Origin: Methanoregula sp. PtaU1.Bin051
GTDB lineage: Archaea; Halobacteriota; Methanomicrobia; Methanomicrobiales; Methanospirillaceae
Assembly: GCA_002067895.1 (NCBI GenBank)
Contig: MVRE01000014.1
Coordinates: 44,142 to 108,141, forward strand
Reading direction: 5' to 3'
Length of the DNA stretch: 64,000 nt
Every line of letters starts with the position of its first letter. Positions within the stretch are counted from its first letter, which is position 1. Of the stretch, positions 9,728 to 35,253 are shown piece by piece. The notes under the pieces are model-generated. The model was not told where the DNA came from and ran no database searches. It saw only the letters and a list, made by a program, of their open reading frames with translations. Position numbers and translations under genes: made by a program.

Positions 9728-9738
9728 GTATAAAAATA
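9728..9738 (+). promoter_or_regulatory. TATA-box candidate for the giant TPR gene
   Basis: GTATAAAAATATT fits an archaeal TATA box and would start RNA about 25 bp downstream, giving a leader of about 140 nt. GTATAAC near 9779 is a weaker alternative. The start codon at 9905 is preceded by AAAGGAG at a usable distance. The gap of 209 bp holds no gene. Confidence 0.4.
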
Positions 9739-9904
9739 TTATTCTTTAATGCCATAAGTATTGTACAGTACCAGAAAGAGTATAACTAATTTTGGAGAAC
9801 CAGTACTATTGACTAGCCAGAATACGATACAGCGCGCACCGGTACGGTGCAGTCAGGAACATGGACGTACGTAACAATAACCCGGGTAAAGGAGTAACCG
9901 GCTC

Positions 9905-12900
9905 ATGAGCAGGACAGACGCAGAGAAGCTGTTGCATCAGGGGATCGGGCTCTATGATCTTGGCAGGTATGCCGAAGCCATCATCATGTTCGACAAGGCG
10001 CTTGCTGCGTTCCCGAACCTTGCCAAGGCATATTACTTCAAGGGCATTGCATTATACGACCAGGGCAGGTATGCAGAAGCGGTTGCAGCATACGACCAGG
10101 CGATCCAGATCGAACCTTCCGACATAAATGCCTGGTACAATAAGGCGGCTACACTCACCCAGATCGGCAGAATCGAGGAGGCGCTCGCGGCATGCGACCG
10201 GCTTCTTGCTATCAAGTTTGACAATGCAGAAGGCTGGATCTTAAAAGGCATCGCACTATACGAGCTTGGAAAGTTCAAGGAAGCCATCACGGCATACGAC
10301 CATGCCCTCACCGTTGACCCCCGCCATGCCAAGGTACATTACAACAGGGGCGTTGCGCTCGCAGATCTCGGCCGGCATGTCGAAGCCATCGCCTCGTATG
10401 AGAAAGCGATCGAAATCGTGCCGACCTACGCAAGGGCATATTACAACAAGGGGATATCCCTTTTCGAGATTGGGCGGTATGACGAAGCGCTCACGGCGCT
10501 GGACCAAGCATTCGCCCTCGACCCGACCGACATCTGGGTCTGGTACTTCAAGAGTTTCATCTATGCAAAACAGGAGAAATACGAGGATGCGGCACTCGCT
10601 GCTGACCGCTTCCTTGCCCATGAGCCAAAACAGGCCGATCTCCTGCTGATCAAGGGGATAGCGGATTACAAGAGGGGCCAGCTCGCCGATGCCGTAGCGA
10701 CGCTAAATCTTGCGCTCGAGGTCAACCCGAAACTTACCGATGCATGGCTGTACAAGGGTCTGTGCGAAAGCCAGAGCGGCCGGTTCGACGATGCCGTTTT
10801 TGCCTTTAACAAGGCAGCGGAGATCAACCCGGAAAACGCTCAGGTTCTGTTCCAGCGTGGTATCGCCCGTGCCGCTCAGAAGAAATACCGGGAATCCGTT
10901 GCCGATTTCGATGCCGCCCTGGCAATCGAGCCGGACAACCCGGTCATCCTCCTGAAAAAAGGGATGGCGTGCGTACGAATCCACCGGTACGAGGACGCCC
11001 TTGACGCCCTGAACCGTTCCCTGCAGCTGAAGCCTGACGATGCACATTCGTTTTATTTAAAGGGCATCGCCCTCACCCGGCTCGGGCGCCATGCTGAGGC
11101 AATTGAGTCCTTCGAACAGGCGCTTGAAACGGATCCCGACTGTGCCATGGCCGCATACCAGCAGGGGGTCTGCTATACAAGCCTCAGGAAATTCGGCGAT
11201 GCCATCAAGGCCTTCGATCGTGCCGCTGCGATCCGCCCCACGTTCTCCCTCGCTGTATACCATAAGGGGTTTGCCCTTTCACGAATCGGCAGGAACGATG
11301 AGGCCATCACAGAATTCGATCGCACGATCGCACTAGACCCTGAATACGCGCCTGCGTACCACCAGAAGGGCGTAATCCTTTCAAAACTGAAACGCTACCC
11401 GGAAGCCATCAACGCTTTCGAGCGGAGTATCGCGATCAAACCAGCTTATGCACAGGCATACTACGACAAGGCTCTGGCGCTGGTCGCGCTCGAAAAATAC
11501 GGCGAGGCCGTCGAAGTCTTCGATCAGGCTCTCCTGATCAACAGGAATTACGTAAATGCCCACCTGAATAGGGGGCTTGCATTGCTGGCTCTCCACCGGA
11601 TCGATGAAGCAATCGTTTCGCTCGATCACGTGCTCGAAATCGAGCCCGAGCACGAACAGGCCCTAACAAGCAAGGCAAAGGCGCTCGTAGCGCTCGAGCG
11701 TTATGACGACGCTGTGAAGGTCTACGAGGCGCTGCTCAGGATATCGCCATCGGCAGTAAATATCCTCTATGAGAGGGGTAAAGCCTTAATCCGGCTCCAC
11801 CGTTTTACGGAAGCCGTCGAAGCGCTCAACAGCGCTCTTGAACAGAACCCCGCCCTGACAGATGGCTGGCTGTACAAAGGGATCGCCCTTGCAGGTGAGG
11901 GGTTCCACAAGGAAGCCCTCGATGCCTATGACAAGGCCATCCGGATCAACCCTTCCCTTTCCGAGGCTATTGCAAGGAAAGGGATCTCATTCATCCGGAT
12001 GGATGAATACGACGAAGCTGTCGCGGCAATCAACCATGCACTCGAACTCAACCCCAATGACGACCGTGCATGGTGCTACAAGGGGTTTGCGCTCATCCGG
12101 CTGGAACGGTTCGATGAAGCGGTCCGGGCCTTCGACAAAGCGATCGAGATCAACCGCAGGTGCGTCCATGCCTATTTCGAGAAAGGCAACGCTCTCACCC
12201 GGCTCGGGCGCCAGCTCGAGGCCGTCGTCTCCTATGACAAAGCGCTTGAGATCGACCCGGAGAACGCAAAAGTATATTTCCAGAAAGGCGTTGCCCTCGC
12301 ACAGAAAGAGCGGTACGACGAAGCGATCTCGGCATTCGAGGCTGCCCTCGAACGGGATCCCCGTAATGCACAGGGACTGTACTACCTTGGTATCGCGCTC
12401 GCCGGACGGGAGCGTTATGCGGAGGCCATCGAGGTCTTCAAGAAATCCTTATCGCTGGTCCCAGATGACGCCCAGGCATTCTATTACGAGGGCATTGCCC
12501 ACATCCAGTGCGGCCAGTTCAACGAGGCTGTAAAAGCGTTCGATGCTGCAATCCTGCTCGAACCATCCCATGCGATGGCGTACTATTACAAGGGGATAGC
12601 ACTGATCCAGGCGTTGGAATATACGTATGCTATTGAATCGCTTGCGAAGGCTGTAGAGATCGACCCGACGGTCACCGATTCATGGATGTACCGCGGCATC
12701 GCATTGTTCCAGCTCGAAAAATACGGGGAGGCGATCGAGGCGTTCGACCGCCACCTTGCTGCAAACCCTTCATCGGCTGATTCGCTGATGTACCGGGGCA
12801 ATGCCCTGATGAAGACATCCCGGTTTACCGAGGCTGCCGATACATTCGACCGCGTGCTCACGCTCAATCCTGCAAACGTCGATGCATGGCTGGAAAAGGG

Positions 12901-15900
12901 CAACGCTCTCTACAATGCAGGCATAAAACAGGATGCGCTGGTGGCGTATACCAAGTCCCTGGAAGTGGATCCCAATCGTGCCGAGGCGTGGACACTGAAA
13001 GGCAATACCCTGTATGAAATCGGCAGGCTCCAGGATGCAGTCGGGGCCTACAATAAAGCCCTTGATCTCAACCCGTCTCTCGAGGAGGTCTGGATGCGGA
13101 GGGGGGATGCCCTCAACGAACTTGGAAAGACGGCGGAAGCGGTCAGTTCATACCAGAAATCGTTAAATATCGACCCGGACCAGGTGCCTGTCTGGGTCAG
13201 GAAAGGCCGCGCCCTCTTTGTTCTCGGGAGGTACCAGGACGCCATCGATGCGCTGGATAACGCGATTGCGCTCGACCAGCGGAATATCGACGCATTTTAT
13301 TTCAAGGCGCTCGCTCTCGAAAAGATAAACCGTAACGATGATGCGATCCGCGTCTTCGAGCTCCTGCTGGAATTCGATCCCGCTTTTGCGAAAGCCCATT
13401 ACCACCGTGGAACGCTGCTCATGTACGCAGGAAGGCAGCGGGATGCCATCGCCGCATTCGATTCCGCAATCGCGATCGAGCCAGACTGTGCCCCTGCATG
13501 GTACTTCAGAGGCAGGGCTCTTTCAGATACCGGCAGGTTTCAGGATGCCCTCGATGCCTTCAACCGGGCCATTGAAACCGACCCCAATTACACCGACGCA
13601 TATTACCATAAAGGGTTCGCGCTCGTCAAGCTGGGAAAGTATACCGAGGCGATCGAATCGTTTGATACCAACCTGACGCGGGACCCGGGCAACGCCATGG
13701 GTCATTTCTACAAGGGATTCGTGCTTGCAAAACTCCAGCAGTACGATGATGCGCTTGCAGCTTTCGACCGTGCGCTTACCTATAGTCCGGACAACCCGCT
13801 GACTCAGTACCATCGCGGCAGAACGCTTTCGGATCTCGGGAGGCACAGCGAGGCTGTTACCGCTTTCGAGAAGACTCTTGCACAGAAGCCCGGTTACACG
13901 GATGCACGGATGCGCATGGGGATCTCGCTGTACCAGCTTGGCCGATACCAGGAGTCGATAGCTGCATTTGATGCAGTGCTCGATACGAACGTGAATAATT
14001 TCCATGCCTATTACCAGAAAGGGCTTGCCCTTTACTGCCTCGGGCAGTATGCCGAAGCGCTCGATGCTTTCGACAGGGCGCTGGAGATCGACTCCGGTTA
14101 TACAGATGCATATTTCCAGAAGGGGCTCACGCTTATCGCACTCGAGCAGTATCCCGAAGCGATCTCGCCGCTCACACACACGATCGGGCTTGACCCGGGC
14201 CGCGCCATGGCGCATTACTATCTCGGCATTGCGTATGAAAGGAAAGGAGAGTTTGAATCAGCGGTCAGCGCCTTGAACCGTGCTGTCGCACTCATGCCGA
14301 AATACGCACCGGCACGGTACGAGAAAGGACGCTGTCTGATAACGCTCGGACTGACGACGGACGCCATCGAAGCCTTTGAAAACACCCTTGAACTGGACCC
14401 GGCACATGCCGATGCAGCGCTCCAGAAAGGACTTGCCCTGTACGGTCTCGGGCGGTACGAGGAAGCGCTCGTGGCATACGATCATGCGATCGATATTAAC
14501 AGAACTTCAGCACCTGCATGGTACCACAAGGGTGTTGCCCTGTGTGCAGTCGAACAGTATGAAAAGGCTGTCGATGCTTTTGATACCTCGCTGCAATATG
14601 ATGAGGCAAACCCCGAGGCATATTTCGAAAAGGGCATCGCCCAGATCCACCTGAACCGGCACCGGGAAGCAATAGAGTCGTTCGACAGGGTGCTTGCGAT
14701 AGTCCCCCACTATGCGAAGGCGTTCTTCCATAAAGGTATAGCACTCTATTCGTGCGGGATGTTCAACGAGGCAGTCCTTGCGTTTAATATAGCATTGGAG
14801 ATCGATCCGTCCGATGCAAAAGCTGCCTTCTACAAAGGGCTCTCCTTTGCCAGTCTCGAAGACCATCCCTCTGCCATCTTGGCTTTTGGCGAATCCCTGT
14901 CCCTTGACCCTGATAAGGCGGAGACCCGGTTCAACAAAGGATTATCGCTTGCTGCGCTCGCTCGGCATAACGAGGCGATTGCAGAGTTCGATGCGGCGAT
15001 CTCAATTGACCCGGGTTACACCGATGCCATCTACAACCGCGCGCTTTCGCTCGCCGAAATCGGGTCCTTTGCCGATGCCATCGAGGCATTAAACAAAGTC
15101 CTTGAAAAGAACCCGAAACTCGCCAATGGCTGGGTGATCCGCGGGATCTGCCTTGCATCTCTCGAGAGGCACCAGGATGCACTCCTCTCGTACGGGAATG
15201 CACTGGAGATTGATGCCGGGAATCCGCATACATGGTATTACACCGGAAAAGCCCACCTTGCGCTGAATAATCCGGAAGATGCAATAAAAGCATTTGACCG
15301 TGCCATCGCGCTTGACCCGGAATTTGGCGAGGCGCATTTCCGGAGAGGCATGGCCCTTTTCATCATGAAGGAGTACGAGAAGGCAGCCGATGCATATGCT
15401 GAAGCCCAGATCCGCATGCCCGAAGACCCTGATGTCAGCATCCAGCGGGGGCGGGCTCTCCTCCATCTTGGCAAAACCGATGTGGCGTTGCAGGCATTCG
15501 ATGCAGTAATTGCTCGGGACACGTCAAACGTGCAGGCGCTGTACTGGCGGGCACGGGCGTTCGACAGAATGGGGGACGGTAAGAAAGCTGTCGCGGCATA
15601 CACAAGGGTACTGAAAACGAGTCCGGACTGCAGCCGCGCGTACTATTACAAGGGACGTGCCCTTGCCGGTATGGGACAGCATGCCCCGGCTATCGACGCC
15701 TACCGGCATGCACTGGAAATCGAGCCGTCTTCTGCGAGAGGCTGGATCGCTCAGGGTGTATCCCTCTTTGCCCTGTCCCGGTTTGAGGATGCGGTACGTT
15801 CGTTCGAGTCGGCCCTCTCTATTGACCCGCATGATGTTCAGGCAGCACTCCTCAGGGGACGGTGTCTCAACCGCCTCGAACGGTATGAGGAAGCGATACC

Positions 15901-18900
15901 TGCATTCGACACGGCGATCGCCAATGATTCCGGTAACGGCGATGCGTTTTATGGCAAAGGTCTTGCTCTATTCCACCTCGGGAAGTACCGGGATGCGATC
16001 ATGGCATTTGACAGGGCTCTTGGCGTTGTACCCGAATGTGCCCAGGCCCACTACCACCGCGGACTGGCACTGTCGGAAATCGGCGAATATGTTAAGGCGT
16101 GCGAGGCATTCGGGCAGTCCCTGAAGTACGGGCCTGATAATCCCCGTGCATACTATGCCCAGGGAATGGTCCTTGCCCATCTCGGACAGCATGCGGAAGC
16201 CATCGCTGCATTTGACAAGGCCCTCTTGAAGAATCCCCATATGGCCCATGCATGGTACGACCGGGGAACCGTGCTTGCCGAAACTGGTAAAGATGACGAA
16301 GCTCTGCAGTCGTTCGACCGGGCGATCGCCCTGAACCCTAACTATACGACAGCATACCATGACAAGGGGCTTGCACTCATGCGCCTCTCACGGCCGATGG
16401 ATGCGGTCCGTGCATTTGATTCTGCACTGGCCGTGGATCCACAGTTTACGGAGGTGGCATACGATAAGGGGCTCGCCTTGTTAAAGGCCGGCAACTATGC
16501 TGCTGCAAACGATGCATTCGGATACGTCCTGGAAATGACACCGAACGATAACCGGGCACACTTCCAGAAAGGACGTGCGCTCGCTTTCGCGGGAAAACAC
16601 GGGGATGCCATTGAATCGTTCAACCGGGCACTTGAGAACGGGCCAGCCGATCCGGCAGTCCTATTCGAGAAAGGTCGCAGTGAATCGGCACTGGGCCGGT
16701 ACGAGGACGCACTCTCATCGTTCGAACGGACGCTCGCACAGGACTCCCGGAACAGTGCAGCCTTCCATGAAAAGGGAAGGGCGCTCTCCGCCCTTGGCCG
16801 CAAGGAAGATTCTGTTGAGGCTTACAATGAGGCAATCAGGCTGGACCCGGCCGATTTCAGGCATCACCTGTCCAAGGGACAGGTGTTGTATGATCTCTCC
16901 CGTTTTGATGACACAATTGCGGCCTGCGACAGCGCGCTTTCCACGGCGCCGGAAAATGCCGATGTGCACGAACTTAAGGGAAAGGCACTCTACCGCTTGA
17001 ACAGATTCGAAGATGCCGTCATCTCGTTCGAGCATGCCATTGACAATGAGAGCACCCGTACATCCCTGTGGGTATGCAAAGGACTTTCCCTCTACCGCCT
17101 TGGCAGGTTCAAGGAATCGATCGAGTCATTCTCAAAAGCGCTGAAACGGGAGCCGTCCAACGAACGCTCGCTCATCTATCGCGGCAAAGCGTATTTCAGG
17201 CTCGGCAGGTTCAACGAGGCGCTCGGCATGTTCGAACGACTGCTCGCCCATGACGAACAGCATGCCGGTGGCTGGTACTACAAGGGATTGTCATATGAGG
17301 CACTCAACCGCCATGCCGACGCACTTGCCGCCTACAACAGTGCTCTTGGGAGCGACTCATCCTGCGCCCCTGCATGGTTCCATAAAGGATTGATGTTACA
17401 TGCCCTCGGCCAGTATGAGGAGGCCATCCTTGCGTTCGATTTCGCACTCGAGATCATGAAGGGGCATTATCCAATCCTCTTTGCCAAGGCAAAATCCCTT
17501 GCTCAGCTCTCCAGGTTCGATGATGCCCTGTCGGTTCTCGATGCTGCACTCGCTGTCGAAAACACGGATCCCCGCATCTGGATCCTGCACGGCAGTGTGC
17601 AGTACGAGGCGGGAAGGCCTGAAAATGCGATTGAGTCTTTTAACCGTGCTATTGGCCTTAAGCCAGATAGTACCACGGCCATTTACCTCAAGGGAAAGGT
17701 CCTGTCGGATATCGGGCGGACGGAGGAGGCCATTGCCTGTTACGAGCGCGTCCTAAGGATAGATCAGTCCTGTGCCATGGCATGGTTCAGGAAAGGCGCG
17801 GCATTTGTCAGCTTGAAACAGTACGAGAATGCCGTCGGGATGTTCCGTACCGGCCTAAACCTCAAGCCCCAGTATGCCAATGGCTGGTATGACCTCGCAC
17901 TCGTGCTGTCAGAACTGAAAGACTACGACAATGCGATTGCTGCTTTCGACCATGCACTCGCCATCAACCCGAGATACACGAACGCGTATTACGACAAGGG
18001 TCTGGCACTGGCGCAGTTGAAACGACACAAGGAAGCAGTCAGTGCATTCGATGATGCAATAGCCATCGACCGGAACTTTGCCGATGCCCATTTCAACAGG
18101 GGGCTCTCCCTTGTCCGGCTGGATCGCAGAACGGAAGCCGTCGCTGCTTTCGATACGGTGCTCTCAATCGACCCGCAGTATGCCCCGGCGGCATTCCAAA
18201 AAGGGTGCGCCCTCTACGATCTCCGGGACTATGAGCGTGCAATTGAAGCGTTCTACGACGCAATTGCATACGATCCGTCACTTACCGATGCATACCTGCA
18301 ACGCGGTCTTTCGTTCATGGCCCTCGACAAATTCAGGGATGCCATCGAATCATTTGATGTTGTCATTGATCGCGTTCCTACGTCCTACCTCGCCCACCAG
18401 CAGAAAGGGATTGCACTGCTCCGGCTCGGTATGTATGCCGATGCGGTGACTTATCTTTCAAAAGCGATCGGCATAGATGACCTGCATAGCAACGACCATT
18501 ACGAGCTGGGTATCGCCCTCGGTGCCCTCGGGCGCGACGAAGATGCTGTTGTTGCATTTGACCGTGCAATAGGGCTTGATACCGTATTTGCCGATGCCCA
18601 TATCAACAAGGCGTATGCACTCGAACGTCTGGGCCGGGATGCCGAGGCAATCTCATCGTTCGATGAATTCATCGCAATCAACCCGTCATTTGCCGATGCG
18701 TGGTATGACAAGGGAATGGCACTTGTCAGAATCGGAAAAGACGGAGATGCAGTTGCAGCATTTGAACGTGCCCACCAGCTGGATCCTGCGAACGCAAAGA
18801 TACTCTTCCATGCCGGGCAGGCACTCGTCCGTCTGGAGCGTGACGCCGAAGCAGTCAGCTTCTTTAATAAGGCCGTAACAATAGAGCCGGAGTTCCGCGA

Positions 18901-21900
18901 AGCTGTCCTTGACAAGGCACAAGCGCTGATGCGTCTTAACAGGTACGAAGAAGCGATCTTGGCATTCGGCCGGGTTTCTGAACTGGCCCCGGATCTTCCT
19001 GAACCATATTTCCAGCAGGGTCGTTGTTTCAACGTCCTTGAAAAGTATGCAGACGCTGTACCCGCCTTTGATAAGTGCTTGGAGAGAGATCCTGCATTTG
19101 CCCCCGCATCGTATGAAAAAGGGATTGCTCTCTCACGTCTTGGACGTTATGAAGATGCCATCGCTGCATTCGATGCAGCGATTGCAGCCAGGGGGGACTA
19201 CGGTGAAGCATATCTTGACAAAGGGAGAGCATTATCTGCACTCGGCTGGAATGACAAGGCAACGGATGCGTTTGCGCACGCTGCTGAATATCTCGCTGGA
19301 AGTACAACGGCATTCCTTGAGAAAGGGGAATCGCTTCTCTTTAACGGCCGGTACGATGAAGCGGTCAAGGCATTCCAGGAGGTTCTCGAACTGGAACCTG
19401 ATCATACCGAAGCCCTCTATCTCCTCGGGACGACATCCGTTGTCCTCCGGAAATACCAGGACGCCATCAGGACATTCGACCGGCTTCTCGCTGTCAACCC
19501 CGATAATCCCGATGCATGGTATGAGAAAGGGATCGCGCTTACCCGTCTGAAACGCCACGGGGACGCTGTTACAGCGTTCGAACAGGCAGCTGCGATCCGC
19601 CCGTCCCATTTTGATGCGCTGTACCACCGCGCAAACGCCCTCACCTCGCTGGAACGAGATGAGGAGGCCGTTCAGGCATACGATGCTGCACTGGCAATCG
19701 ACCCGTCCCATGCCCCATCGCTCCACCGGAAAGGTGCGGCGCTCCTGCGCCTGAAACGTTACCAGGATGCTGTGCGATCACTTGACAAGGCCCTTGATGC
19801 GGATCCCGAGTTCGCTGACGCCTTGTTTGACAAAGGCAGGGCGCTGTCGGCGCTCGGTATGTTCCGCGAAGCAATAAAGACCTATGACAGGGCAACGGCT
19901 CTTGACAAGAACCGGGCGGAGATATTCTATCATAAGGGTCTTGCCCTCCAGTCACTTGGCAGGAACGAGGACGCTATCATCGCCTTCAACAAGGCCATTG
20001 ATCTCGACTCCGGTAATGTCGATGCGTACTACCACAAGGGACTTTCCCTTTACATGACAGGCAGGCATCAGGATGCTCTCGATGCGTTCGACACTGGCCT
20101 TCGCATGAAACCCGAGACGGCTGCAATCTGGATCAACAGGGGCAGGATCCTCGCCGACATGGCAAAGAACAATGAGGCCATCGAGTCATTTGTAAAGGCG
20201 CTTGAGATCGAGTCTTCCAATGCCGATGCATGGTTCTACAAGGGAACCTCTCTCTATGGCCTGAAAAATTATGAGGACGCTATTGAAGCGTTCAACAAAT
20301 CGCTGTTGCTCAGGCCGGATTACGCCGAAGCATATTACCGGAAGGGGCAGGCACTCTCTGCCATCGGGATGTACGAAGAGGCGGTCACTGCATGCGACAA
20401 TTCCTTGTCGATCCGCCCGGACTTTATCGATGCTTTTGAACAGAAGGGAAGAGCACTGATCCACCTTGGAGAGTATAATGAGGCAGTCAGTTGCATAAAC
20501 GACGCCCTCCGTATCCGCCCGAACCTTCCCTCTCTCTGGGTTATCAAGGGGATAGCACTCAGTAGGACGGGGAACGACAGCGAAGCCGTGAGCTGTTACA
20601 ACAAGGCACTGGGCATCAACCCGAAAGAAGTGTCTGCCCTGTATCACCGTGGTGTGTCCTATTACAACCTGTCCCGGTACCAGGACGCGATACGGAATCT
20701 CGAATCGGCACTCATGGAAAGACCGGATTGTGCTGGGGCGTTATACTTCAAGGGAAGAGCGCTCCTTGACCTTTCGATGTTCCAGGAATCCATCAACGCG
20801 TTCGACAAAGCGATCGAGAGACAGGAGGGCTATGTATCGGAGTCGCTCCTGTACAAGGGAATTGCCCTGATCAATATAGGCAGGTTTGCATCCGCGCTGG
20901 ATGAATTCGACCGGGCGGCTGCTGTTAATCCATCGGGATCAGAAGCATTCCTGCAGAAGGGGATCACTCTCTCCCGTCTCGGCCGGTATGATGAGGCAAT
21001 CGTGGCATTTAATGAAGCCATCTTTCGGGCACCGGAGAGCTCCCGCATTTATTACGAGAAAGGCCTTGCCTGCGAGTCTAAGAATACCTACAAGGATGCA
21101 CTTGAGGCATTCGGGGAGGCCGCCCGGCTCGATCCGGCATTTGCTCCCGCCCATCATCACCGCGGCATTGCACTGCTCAGGCTAGGGCATCCCGATGAAG
21201 CGATCGCTGCGTTTGACAATGCCTTAGCTATCCAGCCTGAATATCCTGAAGTCCTGTACGAAAAGGGCAAAGCCCTGCTTGCCGAAGGGATCTATCAGGA
21301 TGCTATTGCCGTATTTGACGCAGCTCTCGCCGCAAACCCCGGTTTTGCCGATGCATTCTATGCAAAGGGCAGGGCGCTGTTCGAATCCGGCAGTTTTGAA
21401 GAATCCGATGCCGAATTCCGGCATGCGCTGGAGATCCGGCCGGACTGCCACCCCGCCCTTTTTATGCAGGGTCGGGCAGCATATGAGCTGGGCAGGTTCG
21501 AGGATGCAATCAGGTATTATGACCGCGCACTCGAGATCAATTCCCGGTCAGCCGATGTTCATCATTTCAGAGGAGTGGCATTTGCTGCAATCGAGCAGCA
21601 CCAGGATGCCATCCGGTCCTATGACCGCGCACTCGAGCTCGATCCGTCTTATACTGCAGCGTTCAGCCACAAAGGGGTCTCCCTCGCCGAACTGGGCCTT
21701 TTTAAGGACGCAATAGAAGCTTTCGACCGGGCACTCGATCATGACCGGACGTATGCTGATGCGTATATCGGGAAGGGTAATGCATACTATGATTTGGGAA
21801 AAGCGGGCGATGCGCTCTACGCGTACGAGAAAGCAATCGAGATCGTACCGGAGAGTGCTGTCGCATGGACCCGCAAGGGCATGGCGCTTGCTGATCTCGG

Positions 21901-22249
21901 AAAGTATGACGAGGCGATACGGGCTTATGACAAGGCTGTGGCCCTTGATCCGGCATTTGGCATCGCTTACTTCACTAAAGGGAGTGCACTCGATGCGCAG
22001 GGCAGGTATCATGAAGCCGCCGAGGCGTACGATGCCATGATCGAGATCCAGCCGGATTTCACCGATGCCTGGATACGCCGGGGGCGGGCACTCTACCGTA
22101 CAGGTGATTATTCAGAAGCCTTAACCTCATTCAAACGCGCCATCGAGATCGATCCCGGCCGCAGGGAGATCTGGAACGATATTGGGACAATTCTTGAAAA
22201 ACTGGGCAAACACGAAGAAGCACAGATCTGTTTTGATAAGGCGAAATAA
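9905..22249 (+). CDS. Giant TPR-only protein, 4114 aa, 121 tandem TPR units
   Basis: A single uninterrupted frame of 4114 codons (roughly 450 kDa). By hand I can divide it without remainder: five leading residues, 120 full 34-residue TPR units, one extra residue in unit 108, and a final 28-residue unit. The consensus is AxAYYxKGxALxxLGRYxEA IxAFDxALxIDPxx, with Gly-8, Ala-20, Ala-27 and Pro-32 strongest. No signal peptide, membrane span, linker, catalytic domain or capping helix is visible, so it should be a cytosolic superhelical rod or scaffold. TPR units bind peptides or proteins; partners are unknown. No two units look identical, so the array is old, not a recent expansion. Transcribed alone; a convergent exported TPR gene follows. 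Function is not known. Confidence 0.93.
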   Translation: MSRTDAEKLLHQGIGLYDLGRYAEAIIMFDKALAAFPNLAKAYYFKGIALYDQGRYAEAVAAYDQAIQIEPSDINAWYNKAATLTQIGRIEEALAACDRLLAIKFDNAEGWILKGIALYELGKFKEAITAYDHALTVDPRHAKVHYNRGVALADLGRHVEAIASYEKAIEIVPTYARAYYNKGISLFEIGRYDEALTALDQAFALDPTDIWVWYFKSFIYAKQEKYEDAALAADRFLAHEPKQADLLLIKGIADYKRGQLADAVATLNLALEVNPKLTDAWLYKGLCESQSGRFDDAVFAFNKAAEINPENAQVLFQRGIARAAQKKYRESVADFDAALAIEPDNPVILLKKGMACVRIHRYEDALDALNRSLQLKPDDAHSFYLKGIALTRLGRHAEAIESFEQALETDPDCAMAAYQQGVCYTSLRKFGDAIKAFDRAAAIRPTFSLAVYHKGFALSRIGRNDEAITEFDRTIALDPEYAPAYHQKGVILSKLKRYPEAINAFERSIAIKPAYAQAYYDKALALVALEKYGEAVEVFDQALLINRNYVNAHLNRGLALLALHRIDEAIVSLDHVLEIEPEHEQALTSKAKALVALERYDDAVKVYEALLRISPSAVNILYERGKALIRLHRFTEAVEALNSALEQNPALTDGWLYKGIALAGEGFHKEALDAYDKAIRINPSLSEAIARKGISFIRMDEYDEAVAAINHALELNPNDDRAWCYKGFALIRLERFDEAVRAFDKAIEINRRCVHAYFEKGNALTRLGRQLEAVVSYDKALEIDPENAKVYFQKGVALAQKERYDEAISAFEAALERDPRNAQGLYYLGIALAGRERYAEAIEVFKKSLSLVPDDAQAFYYEGIAHIQCGQFNEAVKAFDAAILLEPSHAMAYYYKGIALIQALEYTYAIESLAKAVEIDPTVTDSWMYRGIALFQLEKYGEAIEAFDRHLAANPSSADSLMYRGNALMKTSRFTEAADTFDRVLTLNPANVDAWLEKGNALYNAGIKQDALVAYTKSLEVDPNRAEAWTLKGNTLYEIGRLQDAVGAYNKALDLNPSLEEVWMRRGDALNELGKTAEAVSSYQKSLNIDPDQVPVWVRKGRALFVLGRYQDAIDALDNAIALDQRNIDAFYFKALALEKINRNDDAIRVFELLLEFDPAFAKAHYHRGTLLMYAGRQRDAIAAFDSAIAIEPDCAPAWYFRGRALSDTGRFQDALDAFNRAIETDPNYTDAYYHKGFALVKLGKYTEAIESFDTNLTRDPGNAMGHFYKGFVLAKLQQYDDALAAFDRALTYSPDNPLTQYHRGRTLSDLGRHSEAVTAFEKTLAQKPGYTDARMRMGISLYQLGRYQESIAAFDAVLDTNVNNFHAYYQKGLALYCLGQYAEALDAFDRALEIDSGYTDAYFQKGLTLIALEQYPEAISPLTHTIGLDPGRAMAHYYLGIAYERKGEFESAVSALNRAVALMPKYAPARYEKGRCLITLGLTTDAIEAFENTLELDPAHADAALQKGLALYGLGRYEEALVAYDHAIDINRTSAPAWYHKGVALCAVEQYEKAVDAFDTSLQYDEANPEAYFEKGIAQIHLNRHREAIESFDRVLAIVPHYAKAFFHKGIALYSCGMFNEAVLAFNIALEIDPSDAKAAFYKGLSFASLEDHPSAILAFGESLSLDPDKAETRFNKGLSLAALARHNEAIAEFDAAISIDPGYTDAIYNRALSLAEIGSFADAIEALNKVLEKNPKLANGWVIRGICLASLERHQDALLSYGNALEIDAGNPHTWYYTGKAHLALNNPEDAIKAFDRAIALDPEFGEAHFRRGMALFIMKEYEKAADAYAEAQIRMPEDPDVSIQRGRALLHLGKTDVALQAFDAVIARDTSNVQALYWRARAFDRMGDGKKAVAAYTRVLKTSPDCSRAYYYKGRALAGMGQHAPAIDAYRHALEIEPSSARGWIAQGVSLFALSRFEDAVRSFESALSIDPHDVQAALLRGRCLNRLERYEEAIPAFDTAIANDSGNGDAFYGKGLALFHLGKYRDAIMAFDRALGVVPECAQAHYHRGLALSEIGEYVKACEAFGQSLKYGPDNPRAYYAQGMVLAHLGQHAEAIAAFDKALLKNPHMAHAWYDRGTVLAETGKDDEALQSFDRAIALNPNYTTAYHDKGLALMRLSRPMDAVRAFDSALAVDPQFTEVAYDKGLALLKAGNYAAANDAFGYVLEMTPNDNRAHFQKGRALAFAGKHGDAIESFNRALENGPADPAVLFEKGRSESALGRYEDALSSFERTLAQDSRNSAAFHEKGRALSALGRKEDSVEAYNEAIRLDPADFRHHLSKGQVLYDLSRFDDTIAACDSALSTAPENADVHELKGKALYRLNRFEDAVISFEHAIDNESTRTSLWVCKGLSLYRLGRFKESIESFSKALKREPSNERSLIYRGKAYFRLGRFNEALGMFERLLAHDEQHAGGWYYKGLSYEALNRHADALAAYNSALGSDSSCAPAWFHKGLMLHALGQYEEAILAFDFALEIMKGHYPILFAKAKSLAQLSRFDDALSVLDAALAVENTDPRIWILHGSVQYEAGRPENAIESFNRAIGLKPDSTTAIYLKGKVLSDIGRTEEAIACYERVLRIDQSCAMAWFRKGAAFVSLKQYENAVGMFRTGLNLKPQYANGWYDLALVLSELKDYDNAIAAFDHALAINPRYTNAYYDKGLALAQLKRHKEAVSAFDDAIAIDRNFADAHFNRGLSLVRLDRRTEAVAAFDTVLSIDPQYAPAAFQKGCALYDLRDYERAIEAFYDAIAYDPSLTDAYLQRGLSFMALDKFRDAIESFDVVIDRVPTSYLAHQQKGIALLRLGMYADAVTYLSKAIGIDDLHSNDHYELGIALGALGRDEDAVVAFDRAIGLDTVFADAHINKAYALERLGRDAEAISSFDEFIAINPSFADAWYDKGMALVRIGKDGDAVAAFERAHQLDPANAKILFHAGQALVRLERDAEAVSFFNKAVTIEPEFREAVLDKAQALMRLNRYEEAILAFGRVSELAPDLPEPYFQQGRCFNVLEKYADAVPAFDKCLERDPAFAPASYEKGIALSRLGRYEDAIAAFDAAIAARGDYGEAYLDKGRALSALGWNDKATDAFAHAAEYLAGSTTAFLEKGESLLFNGRYDEAVKAFQEVLELEPDHTEALYLLGTTSVVLRKYQDAIRTFDRLLAVNPDNPDAWYEKGIALTRLKRHGDAVTAFEQAAAIRPSHFDALYHRANALTSLERDEEAVQAYDAALAIDPSHAPSLHRKGAALLRLKRYQDAVRSLDKALDADPEFADALFDKGRALSALGMFREAIKTYDRATALDKNRAEIFYHKGLALQSLGRNEDAIIAFNKAIDLDSGNVDAYYHKGLSLYMTGRHQDALDAFDTGLRMKPETAAIWINRGRILADMAKNNEAIESFVKALEIESSNADAWFYKGTSLYGLKNYEDAIEAFNKSLLLRPDYAEAYYRKGQALSAIGMYEEAVTACDNSLSIRPDFIDAFEQKGRALIHLGEYNEAVSCINDALRIRPNLPSLWVIKGIALSRTGNDSEAVSCYNKALGINPKEVSALYHRGVSYYNLSRYQDAIRNLESALMERPDCAGALYFKGRALLDLSMFQESINAFDKAIERQEGYVSESLLYKGIALINIGRFASALDEFDRAAAVNPSGSEAFLQKGITLSRLGRYDEAIVAFNEAIFRAPESSRIYYEKGLACESKNTYKDALEAFGEAARLDPAFAPAHHHRGIALLRLGHPDEAIAAFDNALAIQPEYPEVLYEKGKALLAEGIYQDAIAVFDAALAANPGFADAFYAKGRALFESGSFEESDAEFRHALEIRPDCHPALFMQGRAAYELGRFEDAIRYYDRALEINSRSADVHHFRGVAFAAIEQHQDAIRSYDRALELDPSYTAAFSHKGVSLAELGLFKDAIEAFDRALDHDRTYADAYIGKGNAYYDLGKAGDALYAYEKAIEIVPESAVAWTRKGMALADLGKYDEAIRAYDKAVALDPAFGIAYFTKGSALDAQGRYHEAAEAYDAMIEIQPDFTDAWIRRGRALYRTGDYSEALTSFKRAIEIDPGRREIWNDIGTILEKLGKHEEAQICFDKAK
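9920..22246 (+). repeat. Array of 121 in-phase 102-bp TPR-coding units
   Basis: Unit n starts at 9920 + 102 x (n-1) for n up to 108. Unit 108 (20834 on) has 105 bp because VSESLLYKG replaces the usual eight-residue head, and all later units shift by 3 bp. The last unit is 28 codons. Units have diverged at DNA level, with synonymous and amino acid changes, so phase is kept by selection on the protein rather than by sequence identity. Confidence 0.9.
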
Positions 22250-23068: not shown

Positions 23069-24043
23069 TCAGGCACTGGTAAGGACGAGGATGCGGCGCG
23101 TCAGGCTCTTGTGAACCCGTTGTTCGTGCTTCTCGAGAATCTCCATGTGGTTTTCCGCGATACGTGTAATGTCCCGATGGGTCACAATAACCGCTCTCCG
23201 GCCGGGCCTGAGCACTCTTCCAATCTCGGACAATGCATTGTCGTACAGCCGTTCCATCGTGCCCTCCCTCCTGATTGCTACCGACTGGCCGTATGGGAAA
23301 TCAGTCACAATGGCTTCAACGGAAGCATCGCAAAGAGGCGTGCGTGTGCCATCGGCTATGATGAATGATGCATTCCGGACGTTTCTGCGGCTGCCATGGA
23401 CCATGAACGGATCGAAATCCCCGCCGATCGCGTTGATATCGAGCATTTCCGCTTCGATCAGGATCCCGCCTGTTCCGCAGAACGGGTCAAACAGGATCTC
23501 CCCCGGCTCTGCACAGGAAATATTCACAAGTGCCCGGGCGAGAAGCGGCATCATCACCCCGGGGTGGAAGAAAGCCCTCGTTTTGGGCTTCCGGTGGCCG
23601 TATGCACCCCGGTCGATTGCCATGAGAAGCCGCCCGAAGTAACACCGGTCTTCCGAAAGGATGGCACGGAATTCGAGCGCTGGTTCCGACAGGTCCACCG
23701 TGCCATCAATCTTCGTCCCGATCAACCGTTCAAAGTCCCGCTGGGAGCATGCATCCACTGCACGGGTGTCACCGCTGTGAACCTTTGTAACCCTCCCACG
23801 GAACGGGGTGTCTGCCTTCAGTGCAAGATCCGAAAGGAGGTCAGAAAAGCTGGAAAAATCAGGGCTGCACTCCCCGAAGTATTCATAGACAGCACGGGTC
23901 ATCGCCAGACGGTTTAATGACCCGGGATTTTCACAATCGGCTATCGCTACCTGTTCACGGTGATCGGTTACCTTCCCGATGCAGGCAAGCTCCGCGAGCG
24001 GGATTGTCGGGTTCTCCCCGGAGAGCTCAAAGATGAGCTTCAT
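23069..24043 (-). CDS. tRNA (guanine-N2) methyltransferase Trm-G10 type
   Basis: A 324-aa protein with an N-terminal THUMP-like RNA-binding region (residues 1-150) and a Rossmann methyltransferase domain. Visible motifs are FHPGVMMPLLARALVN, DPFCGTGGILIEAEM (SAM-binding motif I) near 190 and the catalytic TDFPYGQS, a D-x-P-Y variant of the N/DPPY motif. This architecture is that of archaeal Trm-G10, which forms m2G/m2,2G at position 10 of tRNAs. It follows the exported TPR gene on the same strand by 54 bp; each may have its own promoter. Confidence 0.87.
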   Translation of the reverse strand: MKLIFELSGENPTIPLAELACIGKVTDHREQVAIADCENPGSLNRLAMTRAVYEYFGECSPDFSSFSDLLSDLALKADTPFRGRVTKVHSGDTRAVDACSQRDFERLIGTKIDGTVDLSEPALEFRAILSEDRCYFGRLLMAIDRGAYGHRKPKTRAFFHPGVMMPLLARALVNISCAEPGEILFDPFCGTGGILIEAEMLDINAIGGDFDPFMVHGSRRNVRNASFIIADGTRTPLCDASVEAIVTDFPYGQSVAIRREGTMERLYDNALSEIGRVLRPGRRAVIVTHRDITRIAENHMEILEKHEQRVHKSLTRRILVLTSA

Positions 24044-24134
24044 GACTCACTACATCTTGATCGGGATCGCACATAGTTGTATACGGAAACGATAAAGAAA
24101 AGATAGAATTAGTCCGGATTATGTTAACGTCCCG

Positions 24135-25265
24135 TTATGATTTCTTCTCTTTCTTCTTTCCCATGATGCCGGAGAAAAATCCTTTTTTCCCGTTTCCTTT
24201 CCTCTCGTGCTCAAGAATCTTTTGATACAATTCCCTTTCCTCGGCACTGACGGATCTCGGAGTGATGATCCGTACACGGACCATCAGGTCGCCGGGATGA
24301 CCGCGCCTCTTGATCCCTTCACCGGGTATCCGGAGCGACGTATTGTACTGGACACCGGGCGGAACCTTGACCTCGATATGCCTCTTGTCGATGGTTTCGA
24401 TCTCTACTACGGTTCCGAGTATGGCCTGCGCGGGTGAGATTTCGATGTATGTTCCAAGGTTATCGCCTTCCCGGGTAAACCGTTCGTGCGTCTGGACATA
24501 GACTTCAATGAACAGATCGCCGTTCGGTGCTCCATAATCGCCGGCCTCGCCATACCCCTCCATCCGGAGCCGCATGCCACTTTCGATCCCGGGAGGGATA
24601 TGGATTGTGACCTTTCGCTTCACTCTTGCATGGGCCGATCCCCGGCAGGTTTTGCAGGAAATCTCTGGTATCCGCCCTCTGCCTCCGCACTGACTGCAGG
24701 TCGTCATCCGGATAAACTGGCCGAAGGGGGAACTGGACGCCTGCCGCATCTGCCCGGAACCTCCGCAACGGGGGCATGTGTTCTGCTTTTTGGTCTCGCT
24801 GCCGGTTCCGTCACAGGCTTTGCAGGGCTCAGTATGCATGACTTCCACTTCGCGGTCCGTACCGGAAACAGCATCTTCCAGCGGGATGGTCATGCGCATG
24901 AGAAGGTCTGCACCGGCCTGCGGCCCGGTTCTTCGGTAACCACTCCCGAAAAAATCGAAGATATCGCCAAAACCAGAGAAGTCGGTATAGAATCCGCCGT
25001 TACCGAATCCCCCTCCCCCGGTATACGAACCTTTTGACGCGTTCGTGAACGTGTCGTGCCCCATGTTGTCGTACTGGGCACGCTTCTGCGAATCAGACAG
25101 TACGCTATACGCTTCGTTGATCTGCTTGAATTTCTCCTCAGCGCCCGGCTCCTTGCAGACGTCCGGGTGGTACTTGCGCGCAAGGTTGCGGTACGCTTTT
25201 TTAACTTCCTTGTCATCGGCATTCCGTGGTATGCCAAGAATGTCGTAGTAGTCTCCCGCAACCAT
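24135..25265 (-). CDS. dnaJ: Chaperone DnaJ
   Basis: A 376-aa full-length type I Hsp40. The J domain (residues 5-70) carries the HPD motif in [10 protein letters not shown] and is followed by a Gly/Phe-rich linker. Four zinc-binding repeats follow: [24 protein letters not shown] and CKTCRGSA; the last has Ala in place of the final Gly. Two substrate-binding beta domains make up the C-terminal half. It stimulates DnaK ATPase. It starts six bases after the dnaK stop, as the last gene of grpE-dnaK-dnaJ. Confidence 0.96.
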
Positions 25266-25271
25266 TCAGGT

Positions 25272-27119
25272 TCACTCTTCTTTGACCTTGTAATCCGCAT
25301 TGACTACATTATCGTCCTGTTTCTTCTCTGAAGGACCTGTGCCAGCATCTTCATGTGGTTTCTGGGCTGCCTGCTCCGCCTGCATCTTCTGGTAAAGCTT
25401 TGTCGTCGCTGCATACACTGCTTCTGTCAGTATATCCATCGCCTTCTTGATTTCGTCAAGCTTGTCTTCCGAGAGCGCTTTCTTCACCGCTGCGGTTCTT
25501 TCCTCGATCTTTGTCTTATCTGCAGCTTCGAGCTTGTCACCGCTCTCTTTTAACATCTTTTCAGCAGAGAAGACCGCCATGTCCGCCTGATTTCTAAGCT
25601 CAATTTCCTCGCGCTTTTTCTTATCCTCTTCCTCAAACTTCTTGGCATCGGAAACCATCCGGTTGATCTCGTCTTCCGAAATCTTCCGGTCGCCCTTGAT
25701 CGAGATTGCCTGCTGGTTCCCGGTACCGAGATCCTTTGCCGAGACATGGATGATGCCGTTGGAATCGATATCGAACGTGACCTCGATCTGGGGGATCCCG
25801 CGAGGTGCCGGCGGGATTCCTGTCAGCTGGAACCTTCCAAGTGTGAAGTTGTCCTTTGCAAGCGCACGCTCCCCCTGCACCACATGTATCTCGACGCTTG
25901 TCTGCCCGTCCGCAGCGGTTGAGAATATCTGGCTTTTCCTTGTCGGAATTGTCGTATTGCGCTCGATCAACTTAGTCGCAATACCGCCAAGTGTCTCGAT
26001 GCTCAAGGTGAGTGGCGTTACATCAAGGAGCACGATATCCTTTGCCTCGCCGGTCAGCACGGCACCTTGGATCCCTGCTCCCAGCGCGACGCATTCATCC
26101 GGGTTTATACCCTTGTCAGGGTCTTTTCCAAGGATCTTCTTTACCGTTTCTTGCACCAGCGGGACCCGCGTGGAACCTCCGACAAGGAGTACATGGTCGA
26201 TGTCCTTTGGCTCAAGCTTGGCATCCGAGAGTGCCTGCTTTACCGGGCCGACTGTTGATTCCACGAGATCGCCAATCAGCTGTTCGAGTTTAGCCCTTGT
26301 CAGATCGATATTAAGGAACTTGGGACCGCTGGCATCGGTCGTGATGTAGGGGAGATTGATATTTGTTGTCTGGCGGGAGGAAAGCTCAATTTTCGCGTTC
26401 TCCGCCGCATCGCGGAGGCGCTGCATGGCATAGGGATCGTTACGGAGATCGATACCTTCCTTCCTCTTAAATTCCTCGACAAAATAGTCCATGACAAGTT
26501 TGTCGAAATCATCTCCTCCGAGATGGTTATTGCCTGCCGTTGCCTTTACTTCGAAAACCCCGTCACCGAGAGTCAGGATTGAAACATCAAATGTTCCGCC
26601 GCCAAGGTCATAGACAAGCACGGTCGCATCAGTCTCCTTGTCGATACCGTATGCAAGTGCGCTCGCGGTAGGTTCGTTGATGATCCGGAGCACCTCTAGC
26701 CCTGCGATCTTGCCTGCGTCCTTTGTCGCAGTCCGTTGGGCATCGTTGAAGTATGCGGGAACGGTAATTACTGCCTTGGAGATCTTCTCCCCAAGGTATG
26801 CTTCAGCATCGATCTTCATCTTCTGGAGGATCATCGCAGAGATCTCCTGCGGAGTGTACTCCTTTGAATCAATCCTGATCTTTTCCGTTGTACCCATTTT
26901 ACGTTTGATTGACTGGATGGTACGCTGCGGGTTGGTGATCGCCTGCCTCTTAGCGAGGCTTCCGACAAGACGCTCCCCATCCTTAGTGAACGCTACGACT
27001 GAAGGGGTGGTCCTTCCACCTTCGGCATTCGGTATGACAATCGGTTTTCCCGCCTCCATGATCGACATGCAGGAAAATGTTGTTCCCAGATCAATTCCCA
27101 GAACTTTTTCCTTCGCCAT
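25272..27119 (-). CDS. dnaK: Chaperone DnaK (Hsp70)
   Basis: A 615-aa Hsp70. The N-terminal ATPase domain begins [16 protein letters not shown] and includes [25 protein letters not shown] and [12 protein letters not shown]. The interdomain linker [15 protein letters not shown] leads into the substrate-binding domain and a helical lid. The C-terminus is charged and ends KVKEE. Such bacterial-type Hsp70 systems occur in mesophilic archaea and are thought to have been acquired from bacteria. It lies between grpE (2-base gap) and dnaJ (6-base gap). Confidence 0.97.
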
Positions 27120-27121
27120 GA

Positions 27122-27658
27122 TTATTCCTCACTTTGTTTCTCATTTTTTCGTGATACTGCTACCTTTGCAAACCTGATGACCTTATCGTGCATCCGGTAC
27201 CCGCGGCAGACTTCATCGACCACGATACCTTCTTTCTTATCGGAAGGCACATGGGCAACCGCTTCGTGTTCGGTGGGATCGAACGGTTTTTCCATTGAAT
27301 CAATAGGGGTGATCCCGTGCCGCTGCAGGATTGTATCGCAGAGCTGCCGGATCTGTACAAGTCCCTGCTTTATATGCGACTCATCGCATCGGGCTGCCCG
27401 GTCGAGGTTATCGATAATGTCGAGAACGTCAACTGCAAACTCTTCATTCGCATACCGTGTGATGCGTTCCTGTTCGCGGGCAGTCCGTTTCCGGAAGTTT
27501 TCAAAATCAGCCGCAAGCCGAAGGAAACGGTCGTTCAGCTCATCGTACTGCCGTTTCTGTTCGGCAGGATCCGTACTTTCCGGAGCCGGCTCCTGAACGA
27601 TATCATTTCCCGCCGGAACATCTGCCTGCCCGGATTGGTCATTCTGCTCATCTGCCAT
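27122..27658 (-). CDS. grpE: Nucleotide exchange factor GrpE
   Basis: A protein of about 178 aa with an acidic, disordered N-terminus ([11 protein letters not shown]), a long coiled coil (residues 30-100, [20 protein letters not shown]) and the C-terminal beta domain with [12 protein letters not shown] and [20 protein letters not shown], all GrpE signatures. It releases ADP from DnaK. The frame also offers ATG at 27670, four codons upstream; neither has a strong Shine-Dalgarno. First gene of the operon; its promoter lies in the AT-rich gap shared with purH. Confidence 0.93.
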
Positions 27659-27670
27659 ACGACATTCCAT

Positions 27671-33825: not shown

Positions 33826-35118
33826 TTATTCTCCTTTCCGGGTGAACCGGAAAATACCGTATGCAATACCGATGATCCCGGCAATCAGGACGCTCAGGAC
33901 GATTGGATTGGCCAGGATTGCAGCAACGCCGGCCTGTTCTGTAATATCAACCCTTGCTTTCATCGTATCCGAGATATAGGAGTTGTCGAGGGCGTCCCTG
34001 TACCGTATTTCGGAATCTAGTCCGTATTCTTTGATTGTTGCACTGCGGTCGACACTCACTTCATATGATGCAATGACCGATTCTCCGGCATCCATATCGC
34101 CGAGATAGGCAATATCATCATTGCTCGTGAACGGATCTACGGCGCTGATTCGTCCCTGAGCGCTGTATACCTTGGTGTCTCCGATGTTCTTGTATTCAAT
34201 GGCGATTACTTTCTTTTCGCCGGGATGAATCTTCACAGGAGACGAGATGATAGCAAAATCGATCTTTCCTCCGACAGGTATACCTACCGTCTCACTTGGC
34301 GAAGTAACAGTGTCCCCTTCGTTGTTTTCATATACAACGACGACATCTATGGGATATGTAGATCGCTCAGCTTTTGGATCCACAGATACCTTATAACGGC
34401 ATTCGGCAGTCGCCCCTGAAGGGAAATCGCCGATAAAGACACTGCTGTCCGTGGGGATTATCGGGCTGCCACCATTACGGATAATCTTGATTACGGCTCT
34501 TTTCCCATCGTCATACCCGGAGTTCCTGATCATGAGTTTAAGGTAGCCTTCTGTTCCGACGTTCAGATGTTCTGTTTCAGCAGATACGACATCGATCGAC
34601 AACTGGGGTTTGATCTTTATCGGGAGAGAGAGCGTAACTTCCTTGTTTTTATAATAATAGCGAATAGAATCAGTGCCATATTGCTCTGCTATATCAAGGT
34701 ACGTGTAATTCAGGAATACCGGTAAAAGGTATGTACCAGAAGCAGCATCCCTGCTGACTTTTGCTTCGAAAGAGGTGATTATTGTACTGCCACCTAAAAC
34801 ATCCCCGATCATCTGGGGATCCGATTTGATTGTAAGAGGTGCATCTCCGGCAGTCAATGACACCAGCATCAGCTTCGCCGTATTTGGCAGATCATCGCGA
34901 TCAACAATCGATGACTGGCTGAATTTGAATTCATTCAGTCCGCTGTTCTCGATGACTACCGGGATAGTGATATCATCGCCCGGGGAAAATTCGTTAGTGC
35001 CTGAAATATAAACAGAGATCTCCGGACTGCCCGACATATATTTGGTGCCGGCAGTAGCAGGATTAATTACACAGGCACAGAGAACCGCCAGAATGATGAA
35101 ATATTTTCCGTAAATCAT
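33826..35118 (-). CDS. Exported surface protein with CARDB/NEW3-like domains and C-terminal anchor
   Basis: A 430-aa protein. From ATG 35118, with GAGG seven bases upstream, it starts MIYGKYFIILAVLCACVINP, a signal sequence cleaved near ATAG. The body is beta-rich with repeated phrases such as GDDITIPVVIENSGLNEF, GTEGYLKLMIRNSGYDDGK and GEKKVIAIEYKNIGDTKVYS. These are typical of CARDB/NEW3 beta-sandwich domains in archaeal S-layer-like proteins. A single span (IVLSVLIAGIIGIAYGIFRF) and the basic tail TRKGE anchor the C-terminus. Ligand unknown; about three domains can be counted. It stands next to an exported TPR protein of similar membrane topology. Confidence 0.75.
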   Translation of the reverse strand: MIYGKYFIILAVLCACVINPATAGTKYMSGSPEISVYISGTNEFSPGDDITIPVVIENSGLNEFKFSQSSIVDRDDLPNTAKLMLVSLTAGDAPLTIKSDPQMIGDVLGGSTIITSFEAKVSRDAASGTYLLPVFLNYTYLDIAEQYGTDSIRYYYKNKEVTLSLPIKIKPQLSIDVVSAETEHLNVGTEGYLKLMIRNSGYDDGKRAVIKIIRNGGSPIIPTDSSVFIGDFPSGATAECRYKVSVDPKAERSTYPIDVVVVYENNEGDTVTSPSETVGIPVGGKIDFAIISSPVKIHPGEKKVIAIEYKNIGDTKVYSAQGRISAVDPFTSNDDIAYLGDMDAGESVIASYEVSVDRSATIKEYGLDSEIRYRDALDNSYISDTMKARVDITEQAGVAAILANPIVLSVLIAGIIGIAYGIFRFTRKGE

Positions 35119-35253
35119 ACATGGCCTCAATATGTGGATATCCTTGTGCAATATCTTGTGTATATTTGGTTTGGATGTTTATATGGTATTCGCTTGTCGT
35201 TGCGTCAACAACAACAGTAGTGTACAACGAGAATTCCCGCTATGAAAATGTGA

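Follow-up and report, generated by a model that had tools for sequence, protein, structure and literature searches.

The closest described relatives of the protein studied here are superhelical arrays of tetratricopeptide repeats (TPRs). Designed consensus TPR (CTPR) arrays comprise at most about 20 identical repeats. The TPR domain of OGT and of SPINDLY-type proteins is a superhelical array with an inner peptide groove, of about 12 repeats in OGT, which also has a catalytic domain. The long bacterial TPR proteins of Pelodictyon (4,489 residues) and Chlorobium phaeobacteroides (3,035 residues) contain thousands of TPR-rich residues, and both carry PF13844, which we take to be a glycosyltransferase domain. 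The gene in question encodes a 4,114-residue protein (hereafter the giant) and lies in a 64,000-nucleotide stretch of the archaeon Methanoregula sp. PtaU1.Bin051 (assembly GCA_002067895.1, contig MVRE01000014.1, positions 44,142 to 108,141 of the forward strand); the whole of that stretch is called the window. The giant resembles the CTPR superhelices (CTPR8, CTPR16; PDB 8chy, 9qhb, 2fo7) in its 34-residue unit and unbroken array, but its repeats are natural, differ from one another and number 112–159 among orthologues. It resembles the bacterial proteins in its thousands of TPR-rich residues, but unlike them it lacks PF13844, and no catalytic glycosyltransferase domain of the OGT/SPINDLY type follows its TPRs. 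Extreme length alone does not make a TPR protein rare in databases. The account that we favor, and hold tentatively, is that the giant is a phase-keeping cytoplasmic strut, whose two ends each have a likely docking groove and whose interior is a spacer that varies mostly by blocks of eight repeats, each likely one superhelical turn.

The gene reads from ATG to TAA through 4,114 codons with no internal stop, and the other five frames over the same positions contain 55–199 stops each. Position-specific profile segmentation divided the translation into 121 units in a single register, namely a 5-residue lead (MSRTD), 119 units of 34 residues, unit 107 of 35 residues, and a last unit of 28 residues. 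The division proposed in a first-pass annotation of this DNA (5 + 120 x 34 + 1 + 28 residues) was exact by this segmentation. In a Pfam scan of the giant, for which 25 of the 49 matching families are listed, TPR_1 scored 2,095.6 bits over the whole protein, and no enzyme or transporter domain was seen. The highest 19-residue Kyte-Doolittle mean was 1.32, with no membrane span in the giant, so that the earlier description of a protein without membrane span or enzyme domain was borne out. The TPR register continues to the final residue, where the C-terminal structure model consists of TPR alone. The tandem 34-residue helix-turn-helix units, the TPR profile matches and the all-helical hairpins in both models described below mark the giant as a TPR solenoid.

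Two trivial explanations of the array were rejected. An assembly artefact, whether collapse or expansion, is contradicted by the presence of the gene in single-contig genomes and by the recurrence of 121 units in a second species (G003; G numbers designate genomes), whose orthologue is 57% identical over 4,113 residues with one 1-residue difference, besides an alternative upstream start. A drifting or untranslated array is contradicted by the ratio of nonsynonymous to synonymous substitution rates (dN/dS), which was 0.073–0.095 in four close pairs and at most 0.18 in every 10-repeat segment computed; these segments end short of the last ~4–10 repeats, and the pairs G072/G074 and G061/G072, which were out of register, were dropped. 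Purifying selection therefore acts along nearly all of the giant.

In terms of fold, AlphaFold2 models of units 1–33 and 88–121 (seven sequences per alignment) consisted of TPR hairpins throughout, with a mean predicted local distance difference test score (pLDDT) of 92.2 and 92.7, respectively. Structure prediction of segments had been proposed as a check, and it agreed with the TPR assignment. The two models cover the outer stretches only; the register of units 34–87 is unbroken. Units 26–33 of the N-terminal model overlay crystal CTPR at 1.6 Å over all 272 residues of the eight repeats, and the match to 9qhb and 8chy over eight repeats was at 1.6–2.2 Å. One superhelical turn of consensus TPR is eight repeats, or 7.2 nm, as given in PMC7885266 and PMC12060649, and the account in PMC4191447 is of seven to eight repeats per turn of about 72 Å. 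In the giant too, eight repeats likely make one turn. At the CTPR dimensions quoted in PMC12060649, a rod of 121 repeats is predicted to have roughly 15 turns and a length of about 109 nm (121/8 x 7.2 nm), and by the same arithmetic species with 14 turns would have a rod of about 100 nm, and the longest array, of 159 repeats, one of up to about 143 nm. The TPR-only solenoid of the first-pass annotation is supported.

Evidence for the favored account comes from the repeat totals. The orthologue set rests on genome searches. From the 32 loci examined, 26 full-length orthologues were kept; three that run off contigs (G005, G056, G068), two broken by N (G049, G053) and one in two frames (G075) were left out, and G054 was retained despite two unknown residues, its count of 134 being less sure. 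Length variation among Methanomicrobiales, the survey of which had been suggested, was found in two genera and spans 112 to 159 repeats, with totals of 112 (3 orthologues), 120 (7), 121 (2, the window and G003), 128 (5), 134 (1), 136 (4), 144 (2), 151 (1) and 159 (1). The total is a multiple of eight in 21 of the 26, the exceptions being 121, 121, 134, 151 and 159. Unit-level alignment of the 238 pairs with at least 50% identity gave 444 gaps, 342 of which are multiples of eight and 67 of which are of 7 or 15 units. Other long TPR proteins, in 11 clusters scored by unit in the same way, had 59 gaps, of which 3 were multiples of eight. In a residue-level control, the steps seen most often in the two largest clusters (13 and 14 proteins) were of one and two repeats. 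In the giant family, 8.0 units was still the commonest gap size at residue level (185 of 512). When the aligned –7, +7 and –1 events were set aside, all 10 remaining changes on the tree were multiples of eight, or 10 of 13 in all; the –7 is counted once in this figure though the window and G003 do not form a group in the tree, and counting it twice gives 10 of 14. The steps are located near units 21, 45–58, 74 and 80–107, with exact borders that vary between pairs (Table 1).

The main rival is a mutational origin of the eight-step, in which blocks of ~816 bp are duplicated or dropped by recombination after a first tandem eight-block has arisen, with no selection on phase; the protein would still be a long scaffold. 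Near-identical tandem eight-blocks near units 87–114 of two orthologues, G046 and G047, where four-unit means reach 0.98 identity, speak for this, as do the weaker ones near units 41–52 of G011 and G064 (0.55–0.59), the lag-8 excess in three orthologues with the 41–52 block (mean z 3.7), and the large share of steps that falls near units 80–107. Because near-identical tandem eight-blocks occur near units 80–107 in some species, later steps may be partly templated. However, eight-steps also occur near units 21, 45–58 and 74, and the lag-8 excess is small where an array has no recent copies (mean z –0.2 for four orthologues of the window's genus and 1.0 for four of the other genus). In the window itself no template for the step is visible, DNA identity at lag 8 being 0.457, compared to 0.454–0.462 at ten other lags. 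Step sizes other than these predominate among other long TPR proteins. We regard a purely mutational eight-step as unlikely, though by no means negligible. A separate candidate, higher-order ancestry of the array in units of eight repeats, was rejected, as lag-8 similarity did not rise above other lags in the protein comparison of the window, nor in its DNA. An eight-repeat period in conservation likewise gave no consistent signal.

Besides this rival, several observations qualify the strut and its one-turn step. The OGT TPR domain gave a Z-score similar to that of CTPR on the N-terminal model, and with the C-terminal model the fit was at 2.2 Å over 381 columns for the OGT TPR domain (1w3b; 6eou is a further structure of it) and only at 4.6 Å for CTPR; for the related pentatricopeptide repeat (PPR) proteins, AlphaFold's choice of superhelix is described as weak in PMC13041630. 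The 444 gaps are not independent, since the pairs have common ancestry, and the 59 gaps of the control come from 5 of its 11 clusters and were scored with a repeat profile built from the giant itself. At residue level, one control cluster of 12 proteins had gaps of 7.0–7.1 units (20) and 6.1 units (6), and a cluster of 4 had gaps of 8.0 and 8.2, once each. In the giant family a milder gap cost at this level splits some blocks and leaves 223 of the 512 gaps near multiples of eight, with 82 near 7 or 15, 180 of at most 6.5 and 62 of exactly one. Parsimony on the raw totals (tree of the two ends) gave 13 changes with 5 or 7 multiples of eight, a weak result, since the reconstruction assigned to the root the 7 units by which the window and G003 differ from most orthologues. 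Finally, the window copy has 121 units after an apparent loss of seven, and so shows that the strong rule of eight has exceptions.

The conservation of the concave groove was determined from positions 2, 5, 6, 9, 12, 13, 33 and 34 of the unit in comparisons of the window with 13 representative orthologues. Mean groove identity was 0.78 in units 1–7 and 0.67 in units 116–121 compared to 0.37 between them, and stretches of seven or six units in the interior reached at most 0.49. Many of the end-groove residues are invariant in all 26 orthologues, for example K2, Y5, I9, Y12 and D13 of unit 2. This pattern in the aligned sequences suggests that both ends of the giant may bind partners. Over the array as a whole, most groove positions vary among repeats and are kept between species. 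Between-species identity exceeds among-repeat identity most at positions 2, 4, 5, 6, 9, 31 and 34, five of which (2, 5, 6, 9 and 34) line the groove. This last result, together with the fit of the C-terminal model to the OGT TPR domain, would suit a multivalent adaptor whose inner groove binds many peptides along its length, as the OGT TPR superhelix does with its substrates. Such an adaptor is nevertheless decidedly improbable, as groove conservation is concentrated at the two ends and the giant has no asparagine ladder (asparagine occurs at position 6 in 9 of the 121 units).

The strut is favored because the grooves are conserved at the ends, the interior drifts and the steps are of eight. 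Under this account, the 121 units would form one continuous, rigid cytoplasmic superhelical rod of the predicted length, and the grooves of units 1–7 and 116–121 would dock two partners and hold them apart. Whole-turn steps would survive because they leave the two ends, or sites along one side, facing the same direction; each eight-repeat step would alter the end-to-end distance by about 7 nm, and species would set that distance by whole turns. The first-pass annotation had offered a scaffold, ruler or mechanical element. Scaffold or ruler is still the best description, refined by the conserved end grooves and by a step that a plain ruler would not have. Since the steps are mostly of eight, whereas a plain ruler or spacer would take any repeat number, angular phase appears to count alongside length. 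It is quite possible, then, though short of probable, that strut length evolves in one-turn quanta and that selection keeps the rotational register of a 100–140 nm rod.

Lateral bundling in register is a close alternative to the strut, and whole-turn steps are predicted by both. Rods that self-assemble side by side, packed in register and changing in length by whole turns, would form an internal framework or filament, and whole-turn steps suit lateral register as well as end register. Abundance may point the same way. The four 136-repeat orthologues weigh 514.4–516.9 kDa and the G051 orthologue 514.40 kDa, and G051 (HGW-Methanomicrobiales-3) is presumably a groundwater genome of the same kind as the source of a published sediment protein. 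That river sediment proteome (PMC10384328) lists A0A2I0PCX3, a TPR protein of 516.17 kDa whose source is a Methanomicrobiales archaeon of a groundwater metagenome; with 18 peptides (14 unique), it was the protein reported in greatest abundance for this organism. From its mass, fold and lineage as reported there, A0A2I0PCX3 is probably a member of the giant family, and the G051 orthologue, by its mass, is not the exact protein of that report. The outer residues of helix B, on the other hand, are poorly conserved (0.31, units 8–115) and have no consistent period of eight, and self-assembly of this kind is improbable. The giant had also been thought undescribed. This holds in that no study of its gene was found in the literature searched, but the protein list of that one proteomics paper contains this probable member.

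If the strut account is true, the giant would be a natural case of the designers' rule, stated in PMC12060649, that a TPR rod keeps its two ends aligned when its length is in whole turns, found in a very long archaeal TPR-only protein kept over two genera. Methanogen cell biology would gain a strut of about 100–140 nm to look for. A general question, selection on the repeat number of solenoids as against selection on their rotational phase, would become testable. Even if the eight-step is mutational, the ends are conserved and purifying selection is strong, which marks the giant as a large structural protein, as yet uncharacterised, of a methanogen group with many sequenced members from wetlands and sediments.

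The giant occurs in most of the genomes examined from two related genera. An orthologue of the N-terminal 250 residues was found in 35 of the 108 genomes of the family and 35 of the 232 of the order, in 2 of 40 genera, and the C-terminal 300 residues matched in 37 of the 108 family genomes, one match (G068) being an interior stretch only. In all, 38 of the 108 family genomes have an orthologue of one or both ends; they belong to only two genera, Methanoregula and close kin, and several are single-contig. Among the 47 genomes placed in the two genera, 9 have neither end; 8 of these are 64–85% complete, and the ninth (G067, 94% complete) also lacks the methyltransferase that neighbors the giant elsewhere. 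Two N-terminal peptide patterns, which distant relatives could escape, were run against 84,980 species genomes and gave 38 loci. Identity was 65–75% at the 27 labelled Methanoregula, Methanoregulaceae or Methanomicrobiales and no more than 42% at the other 11. Protein database searches listed no orthologue (one scored only 1,772 candidates; the best identity of the other was 40%). In G075 (L084, CP121470.1, Methanoregula sp. SKADARSKE-2, a complete 1.95-Mb chromosome), the gene is split between two frames, of 3,236 and 1,966 codons, which may reflect decay or a sequencing error. In G046, G047 and G054 (L065, L066 and L070), units 19–27 have a lag-15 similarity of 0.55–0.58, as if an 8-block and then a 7-block had been added.

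Table 1. Features of the giant gene, its repeat array and its surroundings (window coordinates unless a locus is given)
Feature	Position	Strand	Basis or remark
TATA-box-like TATAAA in the 209-base upstream gap	9729..9734	+	pattern match only; no evidence of promoter
Shine-Dalgarno-like GGAG, 5' of the ATG	9891..9894	+	by eye
Giant TPR-only protein, 4,114 residues, 121 TPR units	9905..22249	+	open reading frame, profile segmentation, Pfam
Units 1–7, N-terminal turn	9920..10633	+	concave groove most conserved
Units 8–115, interior	10634..21652	+	groove weakly conserved; whole-block length changes fall here
Unit 22	12062..12163	+	near here +8 units in the G045, G051, G052 clade; +15 in G046, G047, G054
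Unit 50	14918..15019	+	near here G002 lacks 16 units
Unit 58	15734..15835	+	near here most orthologues of the other genus lack 8 units relative to the window's genus (placed at units 46–64)
Unit 74	17366..17467	+	window and G003 lack 7 units relative to most orthologues; exception to the rule of eight
Units 80–107	17978..20836	+	other species differ by 8, 16 or 24; some have near-identical lag-8 tandem blocks
Unit 107, the sole 35-residue unit	20732..20836	+	extra residue absent from G002, G003, G004, G011
Units 116–121, C-terminal end	21653..22246	+	conserved concave groove
Small TPR protein, 225 residues	22367..23044	-	hydrophobic stretches at both ends (by eye)
Methyltransferase (UPF0020), DnaJ, DnaK and GrpE, directed toward the 3' end of the giant	23069..27670	-	
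Second TPR giant (own genome, contig C6)	L013:5096-12667	-	close matches only in the window's genus

The neighboring genes suggest one further role, that of a co-chaperone platform for the adjacent DnaK-DnaJ-GrpE system. Beyond the 3' end of the giant, a methyltransferase is followed by DnaJ and in part by DnaK. Of four other loci of the window's genus, three have the small TPR protein and the methyltransferase after the giant, and the fourth ends at its contig. In the other genus, 27 loci were compared over short flanks that never reach GrpE; 15 of them have the methyltransferase next to the giant and 9 have DnaJ. However, these genes converge on the giant and so do not form one operon with it, and the flanks of G011 (5 kb upstream, 2.8 kb downstream) have no methyltransferase, DnaK or DnaJ match. 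The carboxylate clamp of Hsp70/Hsp90 co-chaperones has the pattern K5, N9 / N6 / K2, R6 over three repeats, and at least four of these five residues were found nowhere in any of the 26 orthologues. A co-chaperone platform is thus highly improbable, and the link of the giant to the chaperone genes is weak because the neighboring genes converge on it. The small TPR protein is closely spaced behind the methyltransferase-DnaJ-DnaK-GrpE genes, and its place beside the giant was confirmed in the window's genus only.

Other genes of the window and of related genomes were also noted. The gene at 33826–35151 (minus strand) of the window has a weak CARDB-like match (E 1.7e-5) and is otherwise uncharacterised. 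The same organisms encode a second TPR giant of 2,523 residues that, like the first, is TPR-only apart from one linker. Unlike the first, it consists of 8 units, a linker of variable length and 61 units. Of 7 orthologues, 6 have 69 units in all, and that of G003 has 62. In G014, which belongs to another family, a 6,710-residue TPR protein of 197 units (L011:11803 to L012:11935, plus strand) has different ends and is larger than the giant.
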